DNA from: a virus
IMG/VR virus record: IMGVR_UViG_3300000517_000006
Span: 1-35,126 of that record
Strand: one strand, 5' to 3'
DNA: 35,126 nucleotides
Shown here one piece after another: positions 545 through 34,884 of this stretch (the stretch's first letter is position 1; each line of letters starts with the position of its first letter). Position numbers and translations under genes: made by a program. The notes beneath the pieces are model-generated. The model saw only the letters and a program-made list of their open reading frames with translations, made no database searches and was not told where the DNA came from.

Positions 545-2002
545 TTAATTCCAATCTATTTTTTCTATTGTAAATGGGTATTGAGCTTCTTTGTAAAATT
601 TCTTACGCTGTGTTAGATGACGCTTGGCATACTTACAGGTAGAAGTGATATCCCATATCTGAACAAAATCTTTGTCGTGTGACTTTCTTACACCTCTGCC
701 TATGCTCTGTATAACTCGCACAAATGACTTGCCAGGCTCTAGCAGCACAAGGTTAAAGATGCGAGGAATGTTAATACCCACAGCAGCAACACCATAGGTT
801 GCGATTACTACTTTGTTATAACCTTCGTTGATATCGTCATAGGCTTCTTTCCTGTCGTTCAGCTTGACATCACCTTTCACAAACACAGAACCTTCTATGT
901 GTTCTTGCAGCATTTCCCCTGCGGAGATTCTATCCACAAGTATGAGAGTGTTGCCACTTTCTTTTACCTTGTCAAGCAGTTTTGCGATGTAGGCAATTCT
1001 GTCAGGATCTGTCACAAGATACTTCAACTCCTGCTGATAGTCTTGGAACGCAGGCGTGTCTAACAGCTGACAGATATTGACGTGGCAGTTTGACAGCACT
1101 CCTTTTTCTTGGAGTTCCTTGGCAGATACATTGCCTATAACTGGTCCTATTGAAGCGTGTATGCTTTCAAACTCAAACGATTCTTTGGGAATAGTGCCTG
1201 TCAATCCCCAGCGAATAGGAGCGTTTTTGAGGTTTTGGGTAAGCAGTTTTTTGAGGACATCTGCCTTTGCCTGATGTACCTCGTCTATGATTACAGTAGC
1301 AACACCTTCCAAAAACTCTGCGAGAGAAAGAATCTCCTCACCGTTCTTGTTTCGCTTGTCAAGAATGTTTAAACTCTGCCAGGTGCAGATAGTGTGTGTT
1401 TTGTTTAGTTCTTTTCTGTCACCAAAATACACACCTACATCAAGTCCGCAGTTTTTGTAGTCTTCTTCTGTTTGAACGACGAGACTTTTGTTTGGCACTA
1501 CAACGAGACTTCTGCCATAGGGCTCTACTATCTTTGACAGAGTAGCAGTAATGATAGTTTTACCTGCACCTGTTGCTACTTCTTGAAGTGCTTGAGGATT
1601 TTCCAAAAAGTTGTTGATGACTTCTACCTGATAGTCTCTCAATCTAATAGGCTCACCTTCAGCAGGATGTCCTTTGGGCCAACAAGTATTTCCCCAATAG
1701 TCTTCTGTAATCTTGTCAAAGTTAAGTTTAACAGGCTGCCTTCTGTCTTCGATGTCAGTAATTTCAACAGCACAGTTTTCTAGGATTTCTATAATCTTGT
1801 CAAGGTGATTGACATAGCCTGTTCCGCCTATACCAAAGAATGCTACCTTGCCATCCCACCTGCCTAGTTTATACTGCGGCATATAACGAGCATAAGGCAC
1901 TTCGAATTTGAGAGCGTTCGCAACCTTTCTACGAATATCTACAGGCAAGCCTTCCAGTTTTATATTAACTTCGTCTTCAATAATCAATCTACAAGTAGTC
2001 AT
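545..2002 (-). CDS. uvsW: UvsW, superfamily 2 recombination helicase
   Basis: UvsW is the T4 RNA-DNA and branched-DNA helicase that unwinds R-loops and remodels recombination and replication forks, closing origin-dependent replication late in infection. Visible are an N-terminal region (about residues 1-100), a Q-like LRDYQ at 121-125, Walker A ATGAGKT at 143-149, the DEVH box at 240-243, an LTGT motif III, and a C-terminal motif VI with QSIGRGVR. The 485 aa length is close to T4 UvsW (about 500). The ATG overlaps the stop of the upstream 404 aa gene as ATGA, so the two are translationally coupled. It is probably expressed from the consensus early promoter at 3221-3249. All catalytic motifs look intact. 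Confidence 0.95.
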   Translation of the reverse strand: MTTCRLIIEDEVNIKLEGLPVDIRRKVANALKFEVPYARYMPQYKLGRWDGKVAFFGIGGTGYVNHLDKIIEILENCAVEITDIEDRRQPVKLNFDKITEDYWGNTCWPKGHPAEGEPIRLRDYQVEVINNFLENPQALQEVATGAGKTIITATLSKIVEPYGRSLVVVPNKSLVVQTEEDYKNCGLDVGVYFGDRKELNKTHTICTWQSLNILDKRNKNGEEILSLAEFLEGVATVIIDEVHQAKADVLKKLLTQNLKNAPIRWGLTGTIPKESFEFESIHASIGPVIGNVSAKELQEKGVLSNCHVNICQLLDTPAFQDYQQELKYLVTDPDRIAYIAKLLDKVKESGNTLILVDRISAGEMLQEHIEGSVFVKGDVKLNDRKEAYDDINEGYNKVVIATYGVAAVGINIPRIFNLVLLEPGKSFVRVIQSIGRGVRKSHDKDFVQIWDITSTCKYAKRHLTQRKKFYKEAQYPFTIEKIDWN

Positions 2003-3213
2003 TCAATCCTTTCCATTTCAAAATAGCCACGCTTGATTATGTTGCCGTTTGCGTTTTCGAGATGAACAATCAAATCTTGATCCGCATAATAGTTTAGTAT
2101 CTTTCTCGTAGAAACAAGCATCGTGCTTTGTGCGAGAGATATAACAGAGCGTGGCTGCCATTCTGAAGAGAGAATGGGTTTTGGAATTCTATTGTCTATA
2201 GTATAGAGTATTTTCTTATTTTTGTCAATAGGATTGTTCAAGCCTTGCTCTTTTATCCACGAGTTGAAATAGGAACCTTCTTTGTCGTTGTCCAAACGAA
2301 ACATCACAGCAGCGTCTTCAGGAGGAACGATGTTTCGAATGTTTTTGTGTATTTCAACAACTGCTTCAGGCGTTTGTGAAGGAATAACAACAAGAACAGG
2401 CAGGCGTTTGAGTTCTTCAAGAGCAAGAACAATATTTTCTATAGGAAATCTGTTGTCTTCTATTACTACACTTGGTGCTGAACGATTGGCAATCTTTTGA
2501 GCAAGATAAGAGTATTGAGAAATGCTCTGCCATAAGTCATCGGGGTCAAAGTAATGCAAGCCATATCGTAGACTTCTGTCTTTATACAGCGCAAGTGTAT
2601 TATCTGAAACAGCACCTATTTCCGTTTCAAGAATTTCCTTTGCACGACTGGGAAGATTTTTCAACTCTCTCTCATACACACCGGGCACAACTGATTTAGG
2701 ATCTAGCTCACAGATTTGAGCGTAGATGCGATATACACTGTCAGAGATTTCAAAGTCGAAACGTCGAAATGCATTTACGATTTCATAGAGGTTGGATTCT
2801 GTGTATTCGAAATACCAAGTCTTGTTTTCTGCGTCATAGGTGCTCCACGAGGTGTTTTTCTTTACTCTGTCTATTTCTTCAATCAGTTTTTTTGCATAGC
2901 GAAAACGCACAGCAATCTTTACACCGTCGTCTGACACATCAAAACGAATCCAACGACTTCTGTCTATGTGACGTATTTCTAAATCAGTTTTCTGTTTTGC
3001 AGAATCAACATCTACACCACGAGATTCCAAATAGTTTTTATATTCGTCTAGCTTCTTTCTTGCTAGACGTAACTGCCTATCTGTCAAACCAACGTCTTTG
3101 TCTACCTGACGAGAGAGGCTGCCAATAAGTTTCTTGTCACTGTCTCTAAGTTCAGCAGCAGGAGAAGCAAGCAGGATAAGGCAGTCTTCAACAGAAAAAG
3201 TCGCATATTGCAT
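1999..3213 (-). CDS. HARP-like / degenerate helicase-like protein (404 aa)
   Basis: Not firmly recognised. Residues about 99-157 (IAVRFRYAKKLIEEI ... NKTWYFEY ... LYEIVNAF) look like a HARP module, the DNA-annealing element of SMARCAL1-type proteins. Residues about 255-400 alternate hydrophobic strands and helices (LPVLVVIP, KILYTIDNR, SVISLAQSTMLVSTRKI) like a RecA-type fold, but I see no Walker A, DEAD/DEAH or arginine-finger motif, so it is probably not an active ATPase. It overlaps uvsW by ATGA, suggesting a partner or targeting subunit for UvsW (inference). The ATG at 3213 has no ribosome binding site and lies 7 bases after a consensus -10 box, predicting a nearly leaderless mRNA. The next in-frame Met is far downstream, so this start is favoured. 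Confidence 0.75.
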   Translation of the reverse strand: MQYATFSVEDCLILLASPAAELRDSDKKLIGSLSRQVDKDVGLTDRQLRLARKKLDEYKNYLESRGVDVDSAKQKTDLEIRHIDRSRWIRFDVSDDGVKIAVRFRYAKKLIEEIDRVKKNTSWSTYDAENKTWYFEYTESNLYEIVNAFRRFDFEISDSVYRIYAQICELDPKSVVPGVYERELKNLPSRAKEILETEIGAVSDNTLALYKDRSLRYGLHYFDPDDLWQSISQYSYLAQKIANRSAPSVVIEDNRFPIENIVLALEELKRLPVLVVIPSQTPEAVVEIHKNIRNIVPPEDAAVMFRLDNDKEGSYFNSWIKEQGLNNPIDKNKKILYTIDNRIPKPILSSEWQPRSVISLAQSTMLVSTRKILNYYADQDLIVHLENANGNIIKRGYFEMERIE

Positions 3214-3220
3214 TGTTGTT

Positions 3221-3249
3221 ATTATATGCTATGTTAACTTTTCTGTCAA
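3221..3249 (-). promoter_or_regulatory. Consensus sigma70 early promoter for the 404 aa gene and uvsW
   Basis: On the minus strand a perfect TTGACA (3244-3249) is followed by 17 bases and a perfect TATAAT (3221-3226). The -35 lies inside the last codons of the upstream 281 aa glycan gene (stop at 3229). The -10 ends 7 bases before the ATG at 3213, so transcription should begin on or one base before the start codon. This is a strong host-polymerase early promoter for the uvsW operon. Confidence 0.85.
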
Positions 3250-4074
3250 GCATTTCAACGGGATACCCTCTCTAATCTCATCCAGTGTGTATTCTGTGTG
3301 AGCATAGTCATTTAGCCATTGTGTTCTGTCAGGCATGAGAGGAGATTCTATAAGAGAGTAATCAGTATTGCCAACAGGATAGGCAAGAGACGAAGGACCA
3401 ACAAAAGCAGGTATACCTTTTAGAATAGCATGAATTCCGGGGTTAGAACTCCAATTAATAACTGCGTGTGCGCCTTTAAAATTTATATCATAATCATCGT
3501 ATGATCCTGGTAACTTAAAAGGTTGTTGCACAGTTATATCTAACTTTTTATCAAAATTTCTAGAATAACATCTAGGATGAGGTCTAAACACTATTGGTCT
3601 ATCTGTATATTTTCGTATAAGTTTTACCTGCTGAGATACCCACTTTTCTATATTTGGCATGTTACGCCATTGCTCTGATTTATCGTGCTGTCCGCAAATT
3701 AAAATATAATTTCCTTCATTTCTCCATTCTTTACAGGTAAGGCCTAGTTTCTTTGCTCGTTTGTTGTCATTACCTAACGCGGAAAAATAAGCATCTCGAT
3801 TTACACCATTTAATCCAACCTTCCAAGTAGTCCCTCTCAGTATTGAACCGGCTTCTAACACAATTATTGGTTTATTTTGTTTTTTAGCATTTTGCCATAT
3901 TAGTTTATTTTGTAACATTCTGCCATGCCAAAGTACGCTCCATATAACATCAACATCGCAATAGGAACTATTTTCAACATATGAAAATCCTAATTTCTTT
4001 ATACCCTTTTTAAATGATTCAAAAACTGCTTTAGAATTCAGAGCACCATATTGTGTCCATAAACCAAATTTCAT
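3229..4074 (-). CDS. KpsC/KpsS-like capsule glycosyltransferase (281 aa)
   Basis: Likely a GT-B fold enzyme of the capsule-synthesis type (Capsule_synth family, relatives of KpsC/KpsS). The evidence is the C-terminal half: DRPIVFRPHPR near residues 155-165, AHAVINWSSNPGIHAILKG near 204-222, then IPAFVGPSS, the usual order of the nucleotide-sugar-binding half. The N-terminal half (WTQYGALNS, VIWSVLWHGRM) is typical of phage members. Two paralogs lie at 5694-6605 and 6592-7368. No membrane segment, so probably cytoplasmic. It is the last gene of the island on this strand and starts from a palindromic late promoter at 4089-4098 shared with the divergent GT at 4112. The exact sugar and acceptor cannot be read from sequence. 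Confidence 0.65.
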   Translation of the reverse strand: MKFGLWTQYGALNSKAVFESFKKGIKKLGFSYVENSSYCDVDVIWSVLWHGRMLQNKLIWQNAKKQNKPIIVLEAGSILRGTTWKVGLNGVNRDAYFSALGNDNKRAKKLGLTCKEWRNEGNYILICGQHDKSEQWRNMPNIEKWVSQQVKLIRKYTDRPIVFRPHPRCYSRNFDKKLDITVQQPFKLPGSYDDYDINFKGAHAVINWSSNPGIHAILKGIPAFVGPSSLAYPVGNTDYSLIESPLMPDRTQWLNDYAHTEYTLDEIREGIPLKCLTEKLT

Positions 4075-4087
4075 CGTGTAAATACCT

Positions 4088-4099
4088 CTAAATATTTAA
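4088..4099. promoter_or_regulatory. Palindromic, bidirectional late promoter
   Basis: The 10-base palindrome TAAATATTTA (4089-4098) gives CTAAATA on the plus strand (4088-4094, 17 bases before the ATG at 4112) and TTAAATA on the minus strand (4093-4099, 18 bases before the ATG at 4074). Both match the T4 late core TAAATA and sit in the 37-base gap between divergent glycan genes. One element could therefore serve both. Confidence 0.6.
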
Positions 4100-4111
4100 C
4101 GGAATTTCAAA

Positions 4112-4951
4112 ATGCCAAATATCACTGTGGTCACAACATTTCATAAAGAAGGTCTAGATTTATACGGCCAAAGATTTTTAGATTCCTTTGCTAAACATGT
4201 AGATAAAAAAATAAAAATGCTAGTTTACGCAGAAAGCTGCGATCCTAAAAATATTGATCCTAATCAAATAACAATTTTAGATGCTCAAGAAGCATTGCCT
4301 AAACTAAATCGATTTAAAGAAAAGTGGAAGAATGTTCCTAAAGCAAATGGAGTTTGTCCATTTCCTGAAAAGCGACCACGAGATTATCACAAAAAATTTA
4401 AATGGGATGCTGTTAGATTTGCTAACAAAATTTATGCAGTACTAGACGCCTGTGACAGATCTGAGGACTGGTGCGTTTGGATCGACGGGGATACTTTTGT
4501 TCATAGCGACTGGAGTTACGAAGATTTTGTAAAACTATTTCCTAGCAAAAAATGGATTACATATGTAGGACGAGGAAAAGCAGCAGCTACATGGCCTGAG
4601 TGTGGATTTTATGGTCTTAATCTGAAAGATAAAATTTGTAGGAAATTTTTACAGGATCTTGAAGATATGTATGAAGATGCCGAAAACAAAATGTTTAAAT
4701 TACCCGAGTGGCACGACTCGTATATTTTCGGTCATTTGTTAAATCAGTACAAAGTAAATTATCCAAACATTTATGATTATACTGAAAACATAACACTTAA
4801 GACTGCTCGTTCCGGCGGCGGAGGACATCCTTTAATAAACACAGATCTAGGAAGATGGATCGATCATTTAAAAGGTACCAGAAAACAGTTAGGCAAATCT
4901 AAGCAATCTGATATCAAAATTCCTAGAAACGAATCTTATTGGAAGACTTAA
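4112..4951 (+). CDS. GT-A glycosyltransferase (279 aa)
   Basis: Probable nucleotide-sugar glycosyltransferase with a GT-A fold. The N-terminus MPNITVVTTFHKEG is a first Rossmann strand. A metal-binding DxD appears as CVWIDGDTFVH near residues 121-131, followed by ECGFYGLNL near 165 and EWHDSYIFGHLL near 199, the acceptor and second catalytic regions. It is a clear paralog of the convergent gene at 4948-5697: both have F-K-H/K-A-Y-S/A before the DxD. It is the only plus-strand gene inside the glycan island and has its own late promoter. Its stop overlaps the convergent gene's stop inside a hairpin at 4939-4962. Sugar specificity unknown. Confidence 0.75.
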   Translation: MPNITVVTTFHKEGLDLYGQRFLDSFAKHVDKKIKMLVYAESCDPKNIDPNQITILDAQEALPKLNRFKEKWKNVPKANGVCPFPEKRPRDYHKKFKWDAVRFANKIYAVLDACDRSEDWCVWIDGDTFVHSDWSYEDFVKLFPSKKWITYVGRGKAAATWPECGFYGLNLKDKICRKFLQDLEDMYEDAENKMFKLPEWHDSYIFGHLLNQYKVNYPNIYDYTENITLKTARSGGGGHPLINTDLGRWIDHLKGTRKQLGKSKQSDIKIPRNESYWKT

Positions 4952-4962
4952 TCGTCTTCCAA
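4939..4962. terminator. Hairpin holding two convergent stop codons
   Basis: TTGGAAGAC (4939-4947) pairs perfectly with GTCTTCCAA (4954-4962) around the 6-base loop TTAATC. The loop contains the TAA stops of both convergent glycosyltransferase genes, overlapping by 3 bases. No strong T tract follows on either side, so as an intrinsic terminator it is weak. It may instead protect 3' ends or simply be a compact bidirectional end. Confidence 0.4.
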
Positions 4963-5697
4963 GTCGAAATTTTCTACAATTTGATCTTGATCTAGTCTTT
5001 CTTTAAGACCTGCTTTATAGTGAGACAGATAAGGAGCAAGTACACTTCTACTTATCGGAGTTTTGTGTTGACCAGGATTTAGATTAAGCATTTTGAAACC
5101 TTGTTCTTCCATTTGCTTCACAGTTTTTCCGTATACTTCTCCGTCATAAAATCTTCTAATATCTGAACACTCATCATTATTATAAATGTCAGCGTATCTA
5201 TCGTGAAATTTCCAAAATGCTTTATGTTTTTTGTTTAGCATAAAAAAACCAGTTTCGCAAGAATGAGCTATTCTATCCGGATCGGTGTCTGATGGCCATG
5301 AATGCCAAACATCGTAGTGTGTAGATAGAACATCGTCAGGAGAAATTAAATCAAGCAACTGCGCAGGAATACTTGCTGTTATTACAGTGTCAGCGTCGAG
5401 CCAAATTAGTCTATCGCATTCTATTGTACGCATTGCATGTATGATAGAATATGCTTTCTTTGCAAATTTTTTAATTTTAGAATTACTATGTCTTTCTATA
5501 AATGCTGTATATTCGTTGCCCAAATCAAAAGGTAATTCGTTTACGCTTTTAACTTTAATATCAAACAGGCCTTCCTTGTATACATACAAAGGCATTATAT
5601 GCGACCAATATTTTTTATAGCTCCGTAAAAATGTTCTACCGCATAAATTGTAGTAGTCTTCATTCATACTTGTAATAGCAACAATTTTTTTACTCAT
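4948..5697 (-). CDS. GT-A glycosyltransferase (249 aa)
   Basis: Probable GT-A glycosyltransferase. MSKKIVAITSMNEDYY forms the first strand, and the metal-binding DxD is in RLIWLDADTVI near residues 97-107, followed by SCETGFFMLNKK near 150 and DGEVYGKTVKQM near 188. The pattern parallels the plus-strand enzyme at 4112-4951, suggesting an old duplication with inversion. The ATG overlaps the stop of the upstream KpsC/S-like gene as ATGA. The donor sugar cannot be assigned. Confidence 0.75.
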   Translation of the reverse strand: MSKKIVAITSMNEDYYNLCGRTFLRSYKKYWSHIMPLYVYKEGLFDIKVKSVNELPFDLGNEYTAFIERHSNSKIKKFAKKAYSIIHAMRTIECDRLIWLDADTVITASIPAQLLDLISPDDVLSTHYDVWHSWPSDTDPDRIAHSCETGFFMLNKKHKAFWKFHDRYADIYNNDECSDIRRFYDGEVYGKTVKQMEEQGFKMLNLNPGQHKTPISRSVLAPYLSHYKAGLKERLDQDQIVENFDLEDD

Positions 5698-6605
5698 AGA
5701 TAATCCTTAATTATATTCCATGCTGTTCCGTTTCGTAGGTCTTCGAAATTGTAATGACTCATTGAAATCTTTTCTATCCAAGACTGCCTGTCAAATGTTT
5801 GCGGTTCTTCTATATATCTTAATTCTGTATTAGCAACTGCGTATGCTTGACTGTTTTTGGAGTTTTTGTCTGTAACAAATACTGGCACACCTTCTACTGC
5901 TGCTGCTACACCCGGCGACGAATTGTATGTGACGCATGCCCAGCAATTTTTTAAATCATCTAAGATTGAGCTAGAACTAGATATTTCAACTCCTTGGGGA
6001 GCAGAGCGAATGTAACCTTCTGCTTTCTTGTCTCCAGGATGTGTTCTAACTAGGATAGGTCTCTGAGTTCTTCTTCTTATGGTGCTAACAACTTCTGAAC
6101 ACCATTTCATAACATCATATGATCCCATACTCCAGCCGCCGTTTCTTTGCAGGCAGATCAAAATATGTTCACCGTTATTACGCCAAGGCTGTAAATCTAT
6201 TTTTAGATCTTGTTTTATTTTCTGCCATCTACTAGGATCTTGAGAATTCCAAAAATATTCTCCAGTTGTAGGAAACACATCGTCTAGGGAAAAACGAAGA
6301 TATTGATTGACGTTTTTGGGGTCGCGATATAAAAAAAGATTTGAATCTATCGCAAGTGTTCTGCCGCCGTGTTTTCTCTGTTCTTGTATAATTCTTTTTC
6401 TAAATGCAAGGTGAGGAGCATTGCCGCTTCTTGCATGTACCCAACCCTGTATAACAGCAAGGTCTGAAGGTTCGTATTTAAAATCTTCTACTTCTCGACT
6501 TTGATTGTCAGGAACGCCTAAATGAAAGTTTCTTAAAACTTCTCGTTTTTCAGATTTTGTATTTCTAGCAGGAATTCCTGCATAGTATATTCTAACCGAA
6601 GTCAT
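5694..6605 (-). CDS. KpsC/KpsS-like capsule glycosyltransferase (303 aa)
   Basis: Second member of the capsule-synthesis-like family in this island. Key blocks are QRPILVRTHPGDKK (HP motif), CWACVTYNSSPGVAAAVEG and VPVFVTDK. I place the start at the ATG at 6605 (MTSVRIYYAGIP) rather than an in-frame ATG at 6632. An AGGA lies 9 bases before 6605 and nothing like it precedes 6632. The overlap with the upstream gene also shrinks from 41 to 14 bases. It is followed by ATGA coupling to the GT at 4948-5697. The conserved HP motif suggests an active enzyme, though the reaction is inferred from family resemblance only. Confidence 0.65.
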   Translation of the reverse strand: MTSVRIYYAGIPARNTKSEKREVLRNFHLGVPDNQSREVEDFKYEPSDLAVIQGWVHARSGNAPHLAFRKRIIQEQRKHGGRTLAIDSNLFLYRDPKNVNQYLRFSLDDVFPTTGEYFWNSQDPSRWQKIKQDLKIDLQPWRNNGEHILICLQRNGGWSMGSYDVMKWCSEVVSTIRRRTQRPILVRTHPGDKKAEGYIRSAPQGVEISSSSSILDDLKNCWACVTYNSSPGVAAAVEGVPVFVTDKNSKNSQAYAVANTELRYIEEPQTFDRQSWIEKISMSHYNFEDLRNGTAWNIIKDYL

Positions 6606-7368
6606 TCTGTAATATCCTATATGCGTCGCCATTTTTTAATTCTGACACATGAAACTGTCCGTAAGCAAGATGACATGCCCATTTGTATATTTTATCCAAA
6701 TCCTGACGAGTAGGTGTTTCTAATAGACTTAGATCTTTGTCTGAAACAGGATCTGCTGCTGTAGGTGCAGTGGTAAAAGCGGGTACGCCGTATAACACGC
6801 TTTCTACAGCAGCTACACTTTGATAGGTAACCACTGCATGGCAATCTTTTAAATCATCAAAAATACTGTTTCGTATTCTCGATCTTCTGTTTTGCTTGTC
6901 TCTAATTCTAATAGGACGGTCGGTGTGTTTTTTTATTTCTTTTACGATGTTTGAACACCATGTGTCTCTATCAATGCCATAAAATTTGCAAGGTTTTTCA
7001 GACGGTGTTACTACTAAGATGTGTGTTCCTACTTTTGGTGAGTCAATTTTATAATCAAGTTTACGCCATCTATCATCAGGACGATCTACAATTTCGGAAT
7101 GTTGTAAATCGTTTTTAACTATTCTGTGCCAGTTTTTCCAACCATGCGGATTTTGGGTACAAGGATAGTTACCGACATATCCACTATCCATATAATAAAA
7201 ATCAATTTCGTCATGCCAGCATTTCCAAATCAGTTTGCGTTTGCCCATTCCTCTTATCAGAATCGGTCCTTTTTTAAAATCGTAACTGTAATCTTTTACG
7301 GGAAGGCCTGCACCTTCTGCAAACGCATTTACATATTCGTCTTTCAAATTTTTAGAAAGGCAAATCAT
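6592..7368 (-). CDS. KpsC/KpsS-like protein with altered HP motif (258 aa)
   Basis: Third paralog of the capsule-synthesis-like family. The C-terminal signature is present (CHAVVTYQSVAAVESVLYG then VPAFTT, residues about 176-200). However, the segment that in its two neighbours reads R-x-HP reads DRPIRIRDKQ here (150-159), losing the His-Pro pair. Either the catalytic role is different or the protein is an inactive partner. The ATG at 7368 overlaps the upstream GT stop by 17 bases. Context is a tightly coupled glycan operon. Confidence 0.6.
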   Translation of the reverse strand: MICLSKNLKDEYVNAFAEGAGLPVKDYSYDFKKGPILIRGMGKRKLIWKCWHDEIDFYYMDSGYVGNYPCTQNPHGWKNWHRIVKNDLQHSEIVDRPDDRWRKLDYKIDSPKVGTHILVVTPSEKPCKFYGIDRDTWCSNIVKEIKKHTDRPIRIRDKQNRRSRIRNSIFDDLKDCHAVVTYQSVAAVESVLYGVPAFTTAPTAADPVSDKDLSLLETPTRQDLDKIYKWACHLAYGQFHVSELKNGDAYRILQNDFG

Positions 7369-8044
7369 GCTGTTCCGAATAGTCTGTGTAGATCCTTTCT
7401 CTATGCCATTCTGCTGCGTAGCTTGATCCTTCTCTCGCAGCGAAGTCTGCGAAGCAGGGTGTTCCTAGAGTGTAATGCACGAGTTTAGCATCGGGATTGA
7501 AATCATATTCTATATCTAGCCAATTCCATTCTGTAGGTAATGCTCCAACTAGGTCGTCATCTAGCCATGTAAAACGATGCACCTGTGCGCCAGTTGCGTT
7601 CTTGACAAAATCAGGTGTTACTACCTTGTTAGCAGGATGGCTGCAATTCCATAATATTACAGAACTCCAATTCTTTTTAGGATAGTTTTCGTTCTTGGCA
7701 CCTAAATACTTCTCTGTTATTTTTGTTTGGTAATTATGCTGAACTACCTGGACTGCTTTTGAATTGTCTCGCAATGCCCATAGCTTTGCGATATCGTCTC
7801 TGAGAATCATATCACCATCCATAAAAATAGCCCAACCTTCGTAATTCATCATGTGCGGTACAAGGAAACGTGAATAGATAAAGTGATTAGATCCGTCACC
7901 GTGTGCTTCGTCGTAGTTGTCTAACAATGACAGAGCAAGCGGAACAAGACTCACCGGTTGAGAAGCCTGTCTAATAATTGAGTTTGAACAGGTGTGATAG
8001 GCTATGGCTTCTCTAGGATCATAGCCAATAAAAACGGGTATCAT
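7352..8044 (-). CDS. GT8-like glycosyltransferase (230 aa)
   Basis: Glycosyltransferase of the GT-A, GT8-like type often seen in marine phages. MIPVFIGYDPREAIAYHTCS opens the protein, the DxD metal motif is in WAIFMDGDMILRDD (about residues 71-84), SVILWNC lies near 130, and KLVHYTLGTPCF near 196 supplies the C-terminal histidine region. I start it at the ATG at 8044, which overlaps the cupin stop as ATGA and has a strong AAGGAG 7 bases upstream. A longer version from 8077 adds a basic leader (MRRRRYRKERH) with no support. It is a likely UDP-sugar enzyme of unknown acceptor. Confidence 0.8.
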   Translation of the reverse strand: MIPVFIGYDPREAIAYHTCSNSIIRQASQPVSLVPLALSLLDNYDEAHGDGSNHFIYSRFLVPHMMNYEGWAIFMDGDMILRDDIAKLWALRDNSKAVQVVQHNYQTKITEKYLGAKNENYPKKNWSSVILWNCSHPANKVVTPDFVKNATGAQVHRFTWLDDDLVGALPTEWNWLDIEYDFNPDAKLVHYTLGTPCFADFAAREGSSYAAEWHRERIYTDYSEQHDLPF

Positions 8045-8388
8045 GTGTCTCTCCTTTCTATATCGTCTTCGTCGCAAGCTGTGCCATATTGAACTTCAAG
8101 AATTCTTACAGGTTTTTTTGTAGGGTTTGAGGCTTGATGCCAAACCCTCTTGCCAATAGAGTATCCGCCTGAATTTTTTTGTAGATGAACTGTGTCTTTC
8201 ATCTTTTTCCATTCTGTATCAATACGCACAGTTCCGTCAAGCACATACCAATACTCAGAACGATTAAAATGGCGTTGAAACGAAAGCGATTTGCCTGGAT
8301 CTATTTCTAGTTCTTTTACTTTGTATCCGATTTCTGGTTCATGATTGAGGACTCTATACCATCCCCAAGGTCTAGTTGTATTTTTCAT
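8041..8388 (-). CDS. Cupin, mannose-6-phosphate isomerase type II-like (115 aa)
   Basis: A single-domain cupin resembling the C-terminal domain of bifunctional mannose-6-phosphate isomerase/GDP-mannose pyrophosphorylase. The signatures are RPWGWYRVL (residues 6-14), PGKSLSFQRHFNRSEYWYVLDGTV (near 32-55, cupin motif 1) and a second conserved histidine in KRVWHQASN near 84. Expected role is sugar-phosphate isomerisation feeding GDP-mannose-type donors; alone it may be a nucleotide-sugar 3,5-epimerase-like or sensing cupin. A perfect T4 late promoter ends 6 bases before its ATG, so it heads a late sub-operon covering the following minus-strand genes. Confidence 0.75.
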   Translation of the reverse strand: MKNTTRPWGWYRVLNHEPEIGYKVKELEIDPGKSLSFQRHFNRSEYWYVLDGTVRIDTEWKKMKDTVHLQKNSGGYSIGKRVWHQASNPTKKPVRILEVQYGTACDEDDIERRDT

Positions 8389-8394
8389 CAGGTG

Positions 8395-8402
8395 TATTTA
8401 TA
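8395..8402 (-). promoter_or_regulatory. Perfect T4-type late promoter TATAAATA
   Basis: An exact TATAAATA on the minus strand in the 16-base gap between the pyruvyltransferase and cupin genes, 6 bases before the cupin ATG. By T4 late spacing the start site would be one base before the ATG, so the mRNA would have essentially no leader. It implies late expression of the downstream glycan genes. Confidence 0.75.
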
Positions 8403-8404
8403 GG

Positions 8405-9172
8405 TTAAGAAACTATATCTAAAAATTTACGATAAAATTCTTTGTTCAAATTTCTTGATTCAGTTAAGAAATCATAATCTATTCTATTTGAAGTTTGTAG
8501 AGGAGTATCATTTATATTTTGTAAAAACAACGGAGGATTTTTAAAGTGATCAAATTTTACACTCCAACTTACTACTTGAACATTTTTTCCTAATAGTTGT
8601 GCCCAATATGCTCCGTGATAACTATCTGTAATTATTGTTTTGTGAGATCCTATAAATTCTAACGCTTTTTCAAAATCTATTTCGTTATTGTACATAATAG
8701 ATTTGTCTTGAGTGTTTTCAATTTTAGTTTTAAATTTGTGTAGAAAATAGCCTACTTCTTGTTTTTCTTCGTAAGTTTTATCGAATGCAGCGTGCATACA
8801 ACTTGCACAAGGAAGATATAGATCTTCGTATCCTGCTACAAAATCTCGAATACCAATTAAATTACATTGATATATCCAGTCTGGAAAAAACACTTTTCCT
8901 TTTGATTTTTGAATATGTTTTCTTCCAAAATTATGACCTATACTCCACAGAACGATTTTTTTTGGATTTTTTTTGATTAGATCTTGTATGTGCAACTGAA
9001 ATTTTTTATGTATTAATCCGCCGCCGCCTACTACAAGAATATTAGAAGATAGCAGAGATTTATTGTGCATTAATTCTTGAGAATTACAGTTTGGAAAATG
9101 GAAGTATCGGCTAGGGTTCGATAAATAATCACCTATATTGTTTGTAACTTTTCTATGTACTTCAGTTATCAT
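8405..9172 (-). CDS. Polysaccharide pyruvyltransferase-family protein (255 aa)
   Basis: Looks like the polysaccharide pyruvyl transferase family (CsaB/WcaK-type), which adds ketal pyruvate to surface glycans. Evidence: NILVVGGGGLIHKKF (residues 44-58), KKIVLWSIGHNFG (71-83), NLIGIRD (104-110), and the late signature KTIITDSYHGAYWAQLLGK (178-196), where the family has a Ser/His pair. The protein is short (255 aa) for this family, trimmed at the N-terminus. The ATG overlaps the upstream GT by 11 bases. Base composition is clearly AT-rich, like its neighbours in the island. Confidence 0.7.
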   Translation of the reverse strand: MITEVHRKVTNNIGDYLSNPSRYFHFPNCNSQELMHNKSLLSSNILVVGGGGLIHKKFQLHIQDLIKKNPKKIVLWSIGHNFGRKHIQKSKGKVFFPDWIYQCNLIGIRDFVAGYEDLYLPCASCMHAAFDKTYEEKQEVGYFLHKFKTKIENTQDKSIMYNNEIDFEKALEFIGSHKTIITDSYHGAYWAQLLGKNVQVVSWSVKFDHFKNPPLFLQNINDTPLQTSNRIDYDFLTESRNLNKEFYRKFLDIVS

Positions 9173-9737
9173 AATATTTTCTTAGATGATTTGTATAATG
9201 TAATATGTATGCGTTGTCCATGTGTTTTGGCTGACTACAGTTCCATTTTAAAGGTAATTCTTGTAAACCTTCGACCATTTCAGACAAAATCCATATAACA
9301 TGTCCATTGTCGCCCGAAGGCTTCACTTTAAATTTGCCTGGTACTTTCTTCGGTCTTCTGTTAATTAATTCATTATGAAAATACTTTCTAACACTGTCGT
9401 TACGATAAATCATAAAGCCGGCATTAGGTCTGCCACTTACGCCGTTTACATAGTAAATACTGTTTTCGTTAAGCACAGATTCTATAGGAGGTGTATGTGG
9501 TAGTATTTCGCAATCTGCATCAATAGCGACAAAGGCATCATGTGATTCTTCGTATTGATTTAAAGTGTAATGTTTTTTCCAAGTCCATTCATTGTTTGTT
9601 TCGCCTTCTCGCAAAGGTAGATTGTCAATAACATAATCATAACCGTGTTTTTTACAATACTGTTTTTGACTATCAATACATTTCTGCCATTTTTTTACAA
9701 AATTAGGTGATGCAGAACAAGAGACTATAATTTTCAT
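9162..9737 (-). CDS. Small GT-A glycosyltransferase-like protein (191 aa)
   Basis: A compact nucleotide-diphospho-sugar transferase-like protein. MKIIVSCSASPNF is the first strand, HDAFVAIDADCEILP (about residues 65-79) holds the DxD, and GRPNAGFMIYRNDSVRKYF (101-119) matches the usual substrate-binding block after DxD. The C-terminus includes PLKWNCSQP and ILHYTNHLRKYY, with a histidine suited to metal binding. At 191 aa it is short for the fold but all key elements appear. The start overlaps the methyltransferase stop as ATGA. Confidence 0.65.
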   Translation of the reverse strand: MKIIVSCSASPNFVKKWQKCIDSQKQYCKKHGYDYVIDNLPLREGETNNEWTWKKHYTLNQYEESHDAFVAIDADCEILPHTPPIESVLNENSIYYVNGVSGRPNAGFMIYRNDSVRKYFHNELINRRPKKVPGKFKVKPSGDNGHVIWILSEMVEGLQELPLKWNCSQPKHMDNAYILHYTNHLRKYYDN

Positions 9738-10288
9738 TGTTTTTCGACAAAAAACACGTAATTAAAAACCTTTGCGTTTTCCTTTACAGGTTCTCTCCAG
9801 AATTCGTTTACAATTTTAACATCCATGTTATAAAGAATTTTTTCTCTCCAGAAATCTGGTTGTTCTTGAATCAAATGTGCGTTCCTGCCGTCCGGTAATA
9901 AAGTAGGAGAAGCAGAAGTATGTATATCGAGATAAGCAGCTTTTGAAAACAGTTTATATATGTCTTTTAAATTTATATCTAGAAAATCTGGTTCTATGTG
10001 CTCTAACACGTCCATTGAAATAAGAACATCATAAACACGTTTAGGATATTTGCAATAATGTTCTACACACGGATCGTAACCATGAACTAGAGGATAATCT
10101 TTTGATAGATATTTTACTAAACTACCTGAACCGCAACCGTAATCAATAATACTTGAAGGATTGTAAGTCGAAAGAAATTCTGGTATGTTAAATAGCTTTG
10201 GAACTTTGCGCCTGCTGTTTTTGCCCATCTTATTAGAACCATGCAACTGTTCTAATTGTTTTTTATAGCTATCAGTAAGTTGTGGCAT
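9734..10288 (-). CDS. SAM-dependent methyltransferase (184 aa)
   Basis: Class I SAM methyltransferase: motif I is SSIIDYGCGSGSLVKYL (residues 45-61), the post-I acidic residue is in VHGYDPCVEHY, and the motif II/III region is YDVLISMDVLEHIEPDFLD (88-106). A later block, LLPDGRNAHLIQEQPDFW, is shared in my memory with phage methyltransferases near sugar genes. In this operon it most likely methylates a sugar or polysaccharide end, but small-molecule or protein targets are possible. The ATG overlaps the sulfotransferase stop by 17 bases. Confidence 0.75.
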   Translation of the reverse strand: MPQLTDSYKKQLEQLHGSNKMGKNSRRKVPKLFNIPEFLSTYNPSSIIDYGCGSGSLVKYLSKDYPLVHGYDPCVEHYCKYPKRVYDVLISMDVLEHIEPDFLDINLKDIYKLFSKAAYLDIHTSASPTLLPDGRNAHLIQEQPDFWREKILYNMDVKIVNEFWREPVKENAKVFNYVFFVEKQ

Positions 10289-10871
10289 TATGTTTTTTCC
10301 AGTGTTCTTTTTTTAATTCGAAATGAGGAGATAAAAAGTCAATTAACTGTAAAATGTTGTCTTTATCAATGTCATATTCAATAAAGTTTTTTGAATTACG
10401 AAAATAATCTCTTACGTTATTAAAATGATTTAACCTCATTTCTTTCCAAAAGTGTATTAACTCTTCGATATTTTTTAAACCTAAAGCAGAAATTGAACGT
10501 TTTGCAAAAGAAGGTTTTGATCTATGTTTTAACCTACTTTTAATCCAATCGTCTTCGTTTCTTAATTGTAAAATAAAATAACTATCAGGGTATTGTTGAT
10601 GCAATTGTTTAAAGTATTTGTTTGCTTCTAAGTATCGGTTTTTATTAGACAAAATCATATCTATTAAACAATCTGCTGTTTCTAAATTTGTTAGCAAAGG
10701 TAAATTGTTTTTAAAATTTTTATCTATAATATTAGCAATATTTTCTTTTTTATTTTGTCTTTTACAATGATGATAACTTACATAGCCGCTGTCTATAAAC
10801 AATCGATGCAGCGAAGTAGTAGCAGTTTTATTAAACCCAATAAAAAAAACTTTAGGTCTAGAGTGTTGCAT
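10272..10871 (-). CDS. Sulfotransferase-family protein (199 aa)
   Basis: PAPS-dependent sulfotransferase-like. The 5'-phosphosulfate loop is KVFFIGFNKTATTSL (about residues 7-21), and the 3'-phosphate region is FILQLRNEDDWIKSRL with the Arg and Ser expected of the family. Its likely job is sulfation of a glycan built by the neighbouring enzymes. I start it at the ATG at 10871, since extension to 10886 begins with a TTG codon. This start lies inside the last codons of uvsY (stop at 10858), so the gene is co-transcribed and coupled with the recombination operon. It marks the upstream edge of the glycan island. Confidence 0.75.
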   Translation of the reverse strand: MQHSRPKVFFIGFNKTATTSLHRLFIDSGYVSYHHCKRQNKKENIANIIDKNFKNNLPLLTNLETADCLIDMILSNKNRYLEANKYFKQLHQQYPDSYFILQLRNEDDWIKSRLKHRSKPSFAKRSISALGLKNIEELIHFWKEMRLNHFNNVRDYFRNSKNFIEYDIDKDNILQLIDFLSPHFELKKEHWKKHNATTY

Positions 10872-11313
10872 CTTCCATTCCGGCAACTCGAAGTTTCACA
10901 ACATTAGTAATCTGCCACTGCTTCTGATCCAATGCCTTCAAAACGCCAAGCCACTTGTTTCTTATAAGAGCAAAATCGTTGATTATCTTTTCATAATCAA
11001 CAACATCTGCTTCACCGTCTACATACTTTTCAACATCACGACTGCTTAAAGCTCTCTGATAGTTTTCAAGATACTGACGAAAAAAAGAACTGCGCAGGCG
11101 ACGCAGTTCTATATTAAGGTATTCAAGGATAGCCTCAAGTTCCTGAAGTTGATTGAAACGATGTTCGATTATGCCAGGCATAGAAGCAGAAGCCCGTTCT
11201 ATATTGCCTGCAAGTTTGACTTCTTCTCTCGCTTCAACAAGTTCGTTCTCAAAGAATCGAATTGCTTCAGGAATCTTTTCGATGTTGCGTGAGACTTCTG
11301 AGTACCAACCCAT
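10858..11313 (-). CDS. uvsY: UvsY-like recombination mediator (151 aa)
   Basis: Probable UvsY, the T4 mediator that loads UvsX onto gp32-covered single-stranded DNA. It is about the right size (T4 137 aa), rich in charged helices, and ends in FALIRNKWLGVLKALDQKQW, resembling the C-terminal helix region of UvsY. Position supports this: it follows uvsX and the 72 aa gene in the same operon, starting at a TAATG overlap. The N-terminal part (residues about 1-90) is long and helical with little direct similarity that I can see. The assignment rests on length, context and C-terminus. Confidence 0.7.
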   Translation of the reverse strand: MGWYSEVSRNIEKIPEAIRFFENELVEAREEVKLAGNIERASASMPGIIEHRFNQLQELEAILEYLNIELRRLRSSFFRQYLENYQRALSSRDVEKYVDGEADVVDYEKIINDFALIRNKWLGVLKALDQKQWQITNVVKLRVAGMEDATL

Positions 11314-13786: not shown

Positions 13787-13814
13787 ATTATACATGATGT
13801 GCTAAACATGTCAA
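13787..13814 (-). promoter_or_regulatory. Consensus sigma70 early promoter for gp32-uvsX-uvsY
   Basis: Minus strand: perfect TTGACA (13809-13814), 16-base spacer, perfect TATAAT (13787-13792). It is in the gap between the 549 aa gene and gp32. This is the expected strong early promoter for gp32, uvsX, the 72 aa gene, uvsY and possibly the glycan island beyond. Confidence 0.85.
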
Positions 13815-30966: not shown

Positions 30967-31398
30967 ATGATAGCAGCAGGCGCGTTATTTTACGCTAGAA
31001 ATACAAATAGATTTTTATTGTTACATAGAACACAGGGAAAAAGATCTCAAGTATGGGGTTTAGTAGGTGGTTCTCAAGAATTAGGTGAAACAGCTTGGGA
31101 ATGCTGCAATAGAGAAATAAAAGAAGAAGTAGGGTTGGTAGAGATTGAAAAAATTTTACCTCTAGAAAAATTTTGTACACGCGACAAATCGTTTGAATAT
31201 CATACGTATGTATGTTTTATAGAAGAAGAATTTATACCCAATCTTAATCACGAGCACGACGGCTATGCTTGGGTGACATACGGAAAATGGCCTAATCCTC
31301 TCCACTATGGTCTGAAAAATACTCTTGCAAAAAAGTATAACAAAGATAAATTAAAAACAGTACTCGAAGTAATGGCATTCCACAGAAATGAGCGATAG
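30967..31398 (+). CDS. Nudix hydrolase (143 aa)
   Basis: Carries a complete Nudix box: GSQELGETAWECCNREIKEEVG (about residues 35-56), fitting GX5EX7REUXEEXGU with the catalytic REIKEE. It hydrolyses nucleoside-diphosphate-linked compounds; substrate unknown (nucleotide sugar, NAD-type or mRNA cap are family options). It lies 13 bases after gp15 and overlaps the following cupin by 11 bases, so it is probably read from the gp14-gp15 late transcript. Composition is more AT-rich than gp14/gp15. Confidence 0.9.
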   Translation: MIAAGALFYARNTNRFLLLHRTQGKRSQVWGLVGGSQELGETAWECCNREIKEEVGLVEIEKILPLEKFCTRDKSFEYHTYVCFIEEEFIPNLNHEHDGYAWVTYGKWPNPLHYGLKNTLAKKYNKDKLKTVLEVMAFHRNER

Positions 31399-31735
31399 TT
31401 TAATAGAAACAGATTACGGATACGATCTTATTTGGGCAGATACTGAAAACTACAATTGTAGAATCATAGTTTTTAATGACCCTACTAATAAAATACCAAT
31501 TGGATTTCATAAACATATAGAAAAAACTTGGTTTGTTAACAATGGTAATTTTAGATTAAAAATTATAGAAACACATAACGGCACTTTAGTTGAAAAAGAT
31601 CTAAAAGAAGGCTCTGTTTTTCACATACCACCTCTTACTCCTGTTGGTATAGAATGCTTGTCTGCAGGAGCATCTATTACACAATGTGCTAGCGGTGATC
31701 CGTCAGAAGATTTTTATCAAATTATTCCAAACTAA
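31388..31735 (+). CDS. Cupin-fold protein (115 aa)
   Basis: Small beta-barrel cupin. IPIGFHKHIEKTWFVNNGNFRLK (about residues 36-58) supplies the HxH and Glu region of cupin motif 1, and GSVFHIPPLTPVGIE (about 77-91) is motif 2, though its usual His is less clear. It resembles the capsular-sugar and NDP-sugar isomerase-like cupins and could act with the Nudix enzyme upstream. It is unlike the island cupin at 8041-8388 in sequence. Ends CASGDPSEDFYQIIPN. Confidence 0.7.
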   Translation: MSDSLIETDYGYDLIWADTENYNCRIIVFNDPTNKIPIGFHKHIEKTWFVNNGNFRLKIIETHNGTLVEKDLKEGSVFHIPPLTPVGIECLSAGASITQCASGDPSEDFYQIIPN

Positions 31736-34113: not shown

Positions 34114-34120
34114 TATTTAT
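34114..34120 (-). promoter_or_regulatory. Late promoter core ATAAATA overlapping the SGNH-gene stop
   Basis: Minus strand AATAAATA includes the TAA stop of the SGNH-like gene (34117-34119). It is 20 bases before the fibre ATG; the leader contains AGGA. Confidence 0.7.
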
Positions 34121-34884
34121 TCTAGATATTTTTTTGCTCTTGGATAAAAACAATCTTGCCATATTATTCTATTTGCTTCTTCCGTAGGATGATGATTACA
34201 GCTTTGCAAGAAATCTGCACCTAAATCACTTGCATATTCCTCTAAGCCGTTATACTTACTGTGTTCGTCTTCGTATAGCCAAAAATTATCGAAATTAACA
34301 AGATTAATACTAGGAAAATACTTTTTAGTTTTAGATAAAGGCAAGTATTTCCTTGAACTTTTGAGTTCCATAACCTGCTCACCTGTTACAAAATTGAAAT
34401 TTTCTAATTGATTGCTATAAAAACAAAAAGTGTAAGGAATATTAAGGTTTTGTAATGTGTTTTGTGCTAAAAGTATATATCCTAAATTTTCTCTAATACG
34501 ATCTAGAAATCTATAACCAAACCTATACCTAGGTACAAATATGTGCCTGTCCTTTTCAAAAAAACAATTGCCGCCGTAACCTCCGCTCTGATACCAAACA
34601 TAATTTAACAGATCATAATCTCTATTCTTATTTCTTTTTGGAAAAATCTCAACATCTTGTTTTCTTATTACAAATTCATCTCGATCAAACCCACTAAAAC
34701 TGATAATTACATAGTCAGGCAGATTATTCGTTCCTAAATAGTCTAATAGTTGACTAACTATGCGTTTGTTTCCATAACCTCCTAAACCAAACTTATCAGT
34801 TTCAAAGTCTGTATATTCTTTTCTTACAAAATCAAAAGCATTGTCCTCAAAAAAAGAACATCCTATCATCAGTAATTTTTTCAT
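34117..34884 (-). CDS. SGNH/GDSL-like hydrolase family protein (255 aa)
   Basis: Resembles phage SGNH-fold proteins. MKKLLMIGCSFFEDNAF opens with a GCSF block in the place of the catalytic GDS, GLGGYGNKRIVSQLLDYL (about residues 34-51) carries the Gly and Asn blocks, YVIISFSGFDRDEF is the next strand, and NHHPTEEANRIIW near the end supplies the late His. Members deacylate or act on carbohydrate esters, so it might modify glycans recognised by the neighbouring fibre. The catalytic Asp/His pair is not certain. It starts by TAATG with the upstream gene and runs late into the fibre promoter. Confidence 0.5.
   Translation of the reverse strand: MKKLLMIGCSFFEDNAFDFVRKEYTDFETDKFGLGGYGNKRIVSQLLDYLGTNNLPDYVIISFSGFDRDEFVIRKQDVEIFPKRNKNRDYDLLNYVWYQSGGYGGNCFFEKDRHIFVPRYRFGYRFLDRIRENLGYILLAQNTLQNLNIPYTFCFYSNQLENFNFVTGEQVMELKSSRKYLPLSKTKKYFPSINLVNFDNFWLYEDEHSKYNGLEEYASDLGADFLQSCNHHPTEEANRIIWQDCFYPRAKKYLE

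Follow-up and report, generated by a model that had tools for sequence, protein, structure and literature searches.

The DNA stretch analyzed here (the window) is a 35-kb viral contig, IMG/VR record IMGVR_UViG_3300000517_000006, positions 1 to 35,126. At positions 3229-10886 it carries an island of eleven open reading frames (ORFs), all compatible with glycan enzymes, flanked by uvsY on one side and by the p404-uvsW pair on the other. Our results suggest, with a probability that we place near one in two, that this island is a standing glycan-decoration locus that alters the surface of the infected cell and excludes competing phages. The evidence consists of a conserved site and gene core in related phages, a core protein with the predicted fold of transferases of 3-deoxy-D-manno-octulosonic acid (Kdo), Kdo synthesis genes in relatives, and kinship with gene clusters of SAR116 bacteria.

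Pfam matches are firm for five of the eleven proteins, namely, the sulfotransferase, the methyltransferase, the pyruvyltransferase-like protein, the mannose-6-phosphate isomerase-type cupin, and the GT8 glycosyltransferase GT232. K1, K2, and GT279 had no Pfam match, K3 had sub-threshold matches only, and the classes of these and the remaining proteins are supported by fold, paralogy, or sub-threshold similarity. None of the island proteins contains a membrane segment. The GC content of the island is 34.8%, compared with 41.0% in the rest of the window, and only 0.9% of windows of the same size are equally low. Neighboring genes overlap or stand at most 37 bp apart, and the head gene, encoding the sulfotransferase, starts at a TTG inside uvsY and shares 29 bp with it. 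These results bear out much of a first-pass annotation made from the sequence alone, which had placed eleven genes between uvsY and the 404-amino-acid protein-uvsW pair (the flanks are now confirmed by profiles), named their enzyme classes, and described an AT-rich, tightly coupled region that has one inverted gene (GT279) and is joined at its head to uvsY, making read-through plausible. We also agree with its proposal of a module that builds or decorates a glycan, with the host surface or the virion as the target.

A six-gene core at a fixed site

Relatives were retrieved by means of uvsW, yielding at least 80 IMG/VR loci, the closest among the matches listed, and the counts of island and empty loci given here refer to these. 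The state of the site could be read in 69 loci; 63 of these harbor an island and 6 are empty. Where both ends are present (32 island loci, one of which, L002, is identical to the window), the interval between uvsY and p404 spans 4.9-8.7 kb and holds 5-11 genes, compared with 51-169 bp in the six empty loci. Six genes form a core whose order is kept: a nucleotidyltransferase-cupin fusion, GT8, K3, K2, GT279, and K1. The N-terminal domain of the fusion in relatives is cytidylyltransferase-like (PF01467) and closest to the heptose-1-phosphate adenylyltransferase domain. GT8 and K3 are joined in a single ORF of about 568 residues in 14 loci, and GT279 is inverted in the window and in about half of the relatives.

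The other five genes of the window, encoding the sulfotransferase, the methyltransferase, the pyruvyltransferase-like protein, GT191, and GT249, belong to a variable shell. Several listed islands share the pyruvyltransferase-like and methyltransferase genes, only one other has GT191, and the sulfotransferase has no homolog among the other listed islands at the clustering threshold. Shell families in relatives include FkbM and other methyltransferases, sulfotransferases, GT25 proteins, epimerases, UDP-sugar dehydrogenase, radical S-adenosylmethionine (SAM) proteins, GSCFA proteins, and, in some islands, tailoring enzymes resembling 2-oxoglutarate (2OG) oxygenases. The first-pass annotation had counted as evidence against itself the case in which the same eleven genes form a fixed set in relatives; the six core genes are fixed and the five shell genes vary, so this case holds by half.

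On a uvsW tree of the 69 loci, two or more changes are needed to explain the distribution of islands and empty sites. Loci with an empty site cluster together, and a divergent island (L075) lies inside their group. Since islands are common and the empty loci cluster on this tree, we regard the island as the normal state of the group. A recent one-off insertion is ruled out by the presence of the locus in 63 of the 69 relatives, and the earlier description of an unusual insertion was therefore not upheld. Pairwise distances of K1 and GT279 correlate with those of uvsW (rho, 0.71 and 0.59, respectively); those of GT232 (0.15) and the cupin (0.11) do not follow it.

Kdo-transferase-like proteins and Kdo synthesis genes

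Sequence profiles of K1 and GT279 gave no meaningful match to PDB chains, and a structure search was therefore needed. The AlphaFold model of K1 (mean predicted local distance difference test score, 95.5) was compared with the PDB by Foldseek, and the first 24 matches were all Kdo transferases (WbbB, KpsC, and KrkA; best E value, 3.9e-7). The structural Z score was 13.8 to KpsC, compared with 9.5 for the first unrelated fold. As modeled, K1 thus has the GT-B fold of the Kdo-transferase group. E-x-G, the Q and S of a Q-H-[D/N]-K-S stretch, R-x-H-P, and an S are invariant in 57 K1 sequences. K2 and K3 fall into the same BLAST cluster as K1 and are its paralogs; K2 keeps the HP and SS motifs, and K3 is without HP. 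The window K1 does not match Capsule_synth (PF05159), and only 2 of 51 members do so (best E value, 0.015); hhalign of K1 to bacterial members gave 88%. Because no PF05159 match rises above the cut-off, we name K1 Kdo-transferase-like rather than KpsC/KpsS.

Genes for KdsA and/or KdsB are present beyond uvsW-g168 in 21 of the 43 island loci that span this zone and in none of the 5 such empty loci, a weak association (one-sided Fisher test, P = 0.047) among loci that are not independent of one another. In the relatives, KdsA exceeds the NCBIfam cut-off for its family; KdsB matches CMP-Kdo synthetase best, without reaching the cut-offs. A 383-kb relative with an empty site encodes neither a K protein nor a CTP_transf_3 protein. 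These genes hint, indirectly, that K1 may use CMP-Kdo. This Kdo logic, which joins the fold of K1 to KdsA and KdsB in relatives, was missed by the first-pass annotation.

In five relatives (L017, L038, L011, L014, and L085), kdsA and kdsB are part of a second zone of glycan genes downstream of uvsW-g168, to which L017 adds an epimerase, a UDP-sugar dehydrogenase, and a glycosyltransferase-like gene. Among phage records other than the metagenomic relatives, we found KdsA and KdsB near each other only in cyanophage S-SCSM2R and in an uncultured 462-kb phage. In the former, a cultured Synechococcus phage (L155, 209814-213339), a GT232 homolog is followed by two genes and then by adjacent KdsB and KdsA genes. 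The two intervening genes were considered as K-like and rejected, as neither protein matches the K1, K2, or K3 profile.

Glycosyltransferases shared with alphaproteobacteria

GT232 passes Pfam Glyco_transf_8 at 29.9 bits (cut-off, 24.3). The window GT279 does not match this family, and one member of its alignment reaches 0.0031. Invariant residues of GT279 include a DxD motif (D125 and D127) and HxxGxxK (H252, G255, and K258), and its predicted model adopts a GT-A fold (Foldseek E value, 3.5e-9; Z score, 13.6). On this model, GT279 is a GT-A protein, which we assign to no family.

A profile search with GT279 identified homologs in SAR116, Rhizobium, Pseudovibrio, Chelativorans, and others. The GT279 homolog adjoins a GT232 homolog, and often also a K homolog, in most SAR116 loci. 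It stands beside both in Chelativorans xinjiangense, beside K3 in Mesorhizobium, and beside GT232 in several Rhizobium and Pseudovibrio genomes. On the GT8 tree, the window protein and those of two relatives (L005 and L075) form a clade with ten SAR116-type genes (support, 100/99), apart from most other phages with GT8 in the same slot. As the window GT8 nests with SAR116 and away from most phages, we conclude that this gene was exchanged with bacteria of the SAR116 type, the slot itself remaining where it was.

Promoters and transcription units

The p404-uvsW pair has its own predicted sigma-70-type promoter, which matches the consensus at 10 or more of 12 positions in 65 of 70 listed loci, the empty ones included; among random stretches, about 7% match as well as this. 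In 56 of the 57 island loci, the final codons of K1 contain the -35 box of this promoter in frame, mostly as TTG-ACA/T, encoding Leu-Thr. A second promoter, upstream of gp32, probably heads a gp32-uvsX-uvsY-island unit; across the listed loci, the sequences ahead of uvsY and K1 hold no promoter above background. Read most simply, these sequences suggest that the gp32-uvsX-uvsY unit has the island as its 3' end, whose limit coincides with the start of the next unit. Within the uvsY coding sequence, a ten-pair hairpin followed by TTTTTT resembles a terminator (11086-11110, minus strand) and could be an attenuator of read-through into the island, or due to chance.

The first-pass annotation had also proposed internal late promoters. 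The 35 kb contain a single copy of the motif TATAAATA, where 2.5 would be expected; it lies 6 nucleotides from the ATG of the cupin gene, and no copy lies upstream of the structural genes in the window. T4-type late promoters were rejected on the basis of this single, rarer-than-chance copy, and the promoter evidence points to early sigma-70 units.

Flanking genes and other observations

The features of the island and its borders are listed in Table 1. For GT232, two start codons are candidates, a TTG at 8077 (ORF list) or the position 8050 used in our analysis.

Table 1. Coordinates of the island genes, flanking genes, and predicted promoters in the window
Feature	Position	Strand	Basis or remark
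uvsW, helicase	545..2002	-	phrog_16, 3.9e-79
p404, lower flank, fast evolving	1999..3213	-	Found beside uvsW in relatives
Predicted sigma-70-type promoter of p404-uvsW	3221..3249	-	Perfect TTGACA-N17-TATAAT; lower boundary of island
K1, Kdo-transferase-like GT-B protein, 281 aa, core	3229..4074	-	AlphaFold model, Foldseek, motifs
GT279, GT-A glycosyltransferase, core	4112..4951	+	DxD, HxxGxxK, predicted fold
GT249, GT-A/GT8-like, shell	4948..5697	-	Glyco_transf_8, 0.0031 (sub-threshold); clusters with GT279
K2, K1 paralog, 312 aa, core	5694..6632	-	BLAST cluster of K1; QRxGGWSM, HPGD, and NSS motifs
K3, K1 paralog without HP motif, 258 aa, core	6592..7368	-	BLAST clustering and motif comparison
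GT232, GT8 glycosyltransferase, core	7352..8050	-	Glyco_transf_8, 5.2e-7; tree
Cupin (cupin115), mannose-6-phosphate isomerase C-terminal type	8041..8388	-	MannoseP_isomer PF01050, 2.1e-24
Pyruvyltransferase-like protein, shell	8405..9172	-	PS_pyruv_trans PF04230, 5.9e-7, residues 145-203 only (C-terminal part)
GT191, probable GT-A (GT34-like), shell	9162..9737	-	Glyco_transf_34, 0.012, and DUF273, 0.0028 (both sub-threshold)
SAM-dependent methyltransferase, shell	9734..10288	-	Methyltransf_23, 6.6e-11; phrog_24759, 1.7e-16
Sulfotransferase, shell	10272..10886	-	Sulfotransfer_4, 9.3e-12
uvsY, upper flank	10858..11313	-	phrog_231, 3.1e-16
Predicted sigma-70-type promoter upstream of gp32	13787..13814	-	Perfect; less conserved in relatives

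Upstream of uvsY, profile matches identified uvsX (phrog_97) and gp32 (phrog_1192). The first 25 kb of the window had no DNA-level match in phage records. Its uvsW is nearest to those of jumbo T4-related phages (Phosso, PA5oct, Atu_ph07, and CBB). With uvsW relatives on contigs of 357 and 383 kb as well, the window is likely to derive from a jumbo phage. The p404 protein, which always adjoins uvsW, matches no family and has no homolog in phage records; its median identity among relatives is 32%, compared with 76% for uvsW.

Elsewhere in the window, NUDIX and cupin-like genes occupy an AT-rich patch (30967-31735) between structural genes and a probable tail fiber gene. A patch of 30% GC (34117-34884, minus strand) encodes a protein of 255 residues without a Pfam match, whose start, MIGCSFF, looks SGNH/GSCFA-like by eye. 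Eight loci (L085, L086, L087, L099, L111, L112, L120, and L144) resemble phage contigs of the window's type and are filed under metagenome-assembled genomes of Neomarinimicrobiota, Euryarchaeota, Pelagibacter, Verrucomicrobia, Pacearchaeota, and others; we regard them as misbinned because they carry uvsX/uvsY/uvsW, or p404 together with K genes.

Discussion

We propose that the window comes from a clade of large marine phages related to T4, probably infecting alphaproteobacteria, in which the island would extend the early gp32-uvsX-uvsY operon and end at the independent p404-uvsW promoter. Since the island lies between the end of the operon and this promoter, its cargo could be swapped without harm to the recombination genes. 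The soluble GT8, GT279, and K1-K2-K3 proteins would most likely act in the cytosol, where they assemble a short acidic oligosaccharide from host nucleotide sugars and CMP-Kdo, with certain relatives supplying their own KdsA and KdsB. The chain would most likely be joined to a lipid-linked acceptor of the host, such as a lipopolysaccharide (LPS) core or O-chain or a capsule intermediate, and be exported by the host, and the shell genes, through sulfo-, methyl-, and pyruvyl-transfer and additional glycosyltransferases, would vary its end groups. Receptors on the infected cell would thus be hidden or changed and competing phages excluded, a benefit that has been proposed for pelagimyophages (PMC7029224) and jumbo cyanophages (PMC7824862). 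The fusion of GT8 with K3 also speaks for such a pathway.

Neither an initiating sugar-phosphate transferase (PF02397) nor a flippase (PF01943) was found in eight phage records, the 357-kb relative included, in a search with a positive control. Together with the lack of membrane segments, this indicates that the acceptor must come from elsewhere, either as a host intermediate or as a phage protein, and the "full module" of the first-pass annotation was too strong a term. We favor a host acceptor because the island is placed in an early unit and because its chemistry is of the host type.

Several observations weigh against this proposal. The candidate catalytic Asp of K1, D131, is Asp in 40 of 57 sequences and Asn in 8, and the alignment is offset by two residues; for comparison, the catalytic Asp nucleophile is D160 in KpsC and D232 in WbbB. 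Both KdsA and KdsB are absent from 22 of the 43 spanned island loci, and the window contig ends 34 bases past g168, short of the zone in which relatives carry these genes. The core nucleotidyltransferase-cupin is reduced in the window to its C-terminal cupin half, which is all that the island itself offers toward a sugar-nucleotide supply; the nucleotidyltransferase, KdsA, KdsB, and UDP-sugar dehydrogenase are found in relatives. Finally, homologous genes lie between tail and lysis genes in CcrColossus and adjoin the terminase gene in a podovirus, positions that fit a decoration of the virion at least equally well.

Such decoration, in which the soluble enzymes glycosylate a capsid, tail, or fiber protein in the cytosol and protect virions or tune adsorption, is the principal alternative, which we consider less likely. 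It would accommodate the solubility of every island enzyme and the failure to find genes for lipid carriers or export in our searches. Chlorovirus PBCV-1 glycosylates its structural protein with its own glycosyltransferases, and one of these, acting on the capsid, ties for the best structural match to GT279 (Z score, 13.6), although GT-A folds are generic. Virion glycosylation is also known in mycobacteriophages, as cited in PMC12619734. However, the island of this clade stands in the early recombination unit and not in a late one, and its chemistry (Kdo, GT8, and FkbM) resembles host surface polysaccharides and alphaproteobacterial chromosomal loci. A stricter version, in which the clade has an obligate Kdo-glycan pathway of its own (KdsA, KdsB, three Kdo-transferase-like paralogs, and GT8) and coats the virion with the product by means of soluble enzymes encoded in the recombination operon, seems unlikely to us. 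If true, a bacteriophage would carry a coat made from a sugar that otherwise characterizes the LPS and capsules of bacteria.

We saw no polymerase or transporter in the island, and some islands encode tailoring enzymes, radical SAM and 2OG-oxygenase-like proteins among them. These observations would also suit the synthesis of a soluble sugar-derived metabolite, secreted or intracellular (a decoy, signal, or antibiotic), as was suggested for a second cyanophage cluster (PMC7824862). We judge this improbable, as the core consists of serial glycosyltransferases with a Kdo-transferase fold whose chromosomal counterparts co-occur. Still less probable is DNA hypermodification. Phage glycosyltransferases often place sugars on modified DNA bases, here as a defense against restriction, and the 357-kb relative carries a gene of the thymidylate synthase fold; however, that gene is a single ordinary PF00303 copy not tied to the island, the island proteins match no DNA-glycosyltransferase family, and we know of no Kdo-type, GT8, sulfo-, or pyruvyl chemistry on DNA. 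We give equally little credence to the idea of a hot spot that gathers host genes without a fixed role. The variable shell, the lower GC content, and the exchange of GT8 with SAR116-like bacteria are what it would predict, but the order of the six core genes is kept across divergent phages, K1 and GT279 distances track uvsW, and the motifs of K1 are invariant.

Decoration of the host surface, the reading that we prefer, turns a vague "glycan island" into a pathway open to testing: the slot and its six-gene core are fixed, the chemistry is predicted to involve Kdo, and genes are exchanged with SAR116-like hosts. Such a locus would illustrate how very large phages may reserve a permanent position for genes of surface chemistry that change quickly, namely, the 3' end of an early unit, just ahead of the following promoter. 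The locus also offers a marker that could tie uncultured marine phages to alphaproteobacterial hosts.

Comparison with known systems

With several clustered glycosyltransferases and sugar-modifying enzymes, the island has the makeup of a phage LPS or capsule modification cluster; lacking an initiating transferase and a flippase in the eight records, it does not have that of a complete Wzx/Wzy capsule locus. Clusters of this general kind are already known (PMC7824862, PMC7029224, and PMC9123017), so the precedent is broader than the single glycosyltransferases to which the first-pass annotation had referred. The LPS/capsule clusters of cyanophages and jumbo phages, such as the 15-gene cluster of P-SSM2 and those of the marine group PGC_C, where LPS genes occur in 76% of the jumbo phages (PMC9123017), likewise comprise a large set of paralogous glycosyltransferases, cupin sugar isomerases, and nucleotidyltransferases. 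They too are sporadic and polymorphic, and a surface change directed against rival phages has been proposed for them (PMC7824862 and PMC9123017). Unlike these clusters, the island has a core of a K triplet with the predicted Kdo-transferase fold, GT8, and GT279 in a fixed uvsY/p404 slot, and it holds few sugar-producing enzymes, KdsA and KdsB being nearby in relatives.

The host recognition cluster of pelagimyophages (PMC7029224) and that of the cultured SAR11 phage Mosig EXVC030M (MT647606, 124832-130666) are also clusters of T4-like marine phages. The Mosig cluster brings together GT8, K-like, GT279-like, sulfotransferase, and methyltransferase genes, as the island does, but it lies beside RuvC/NrdB rather than uvsY/uvsW and has another gene order. 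The GT8-GT279-K clusters of SAR116, Chelativorans, and Mesorhizobium place the same glycosyltransferase families side by side; they differ in being chromosomal and in their order and neighbors. K1 shares its predicted fold and the E-x-G, HP, and SS motifs with the retaining beta-Kdo transferases KpsC/KpsS and WbbB, and relatives of the window hold CMP-Kdo enzymes. In contrast to those transferases, K1 is a single small module of 281 residues, K1 and K2 do not match Capsule_synth, and the candidate catalytic Asp varies. We found no paper in the open-licence literature that describes the uvsY/p404 slot or the six-gene core. Judged by that literature, the novelty lies in a fixed slot whose border is locked by a promoter, a core of six genes, three Kdo-transferase-like paralogs, and the link to KdsA and KdsB.

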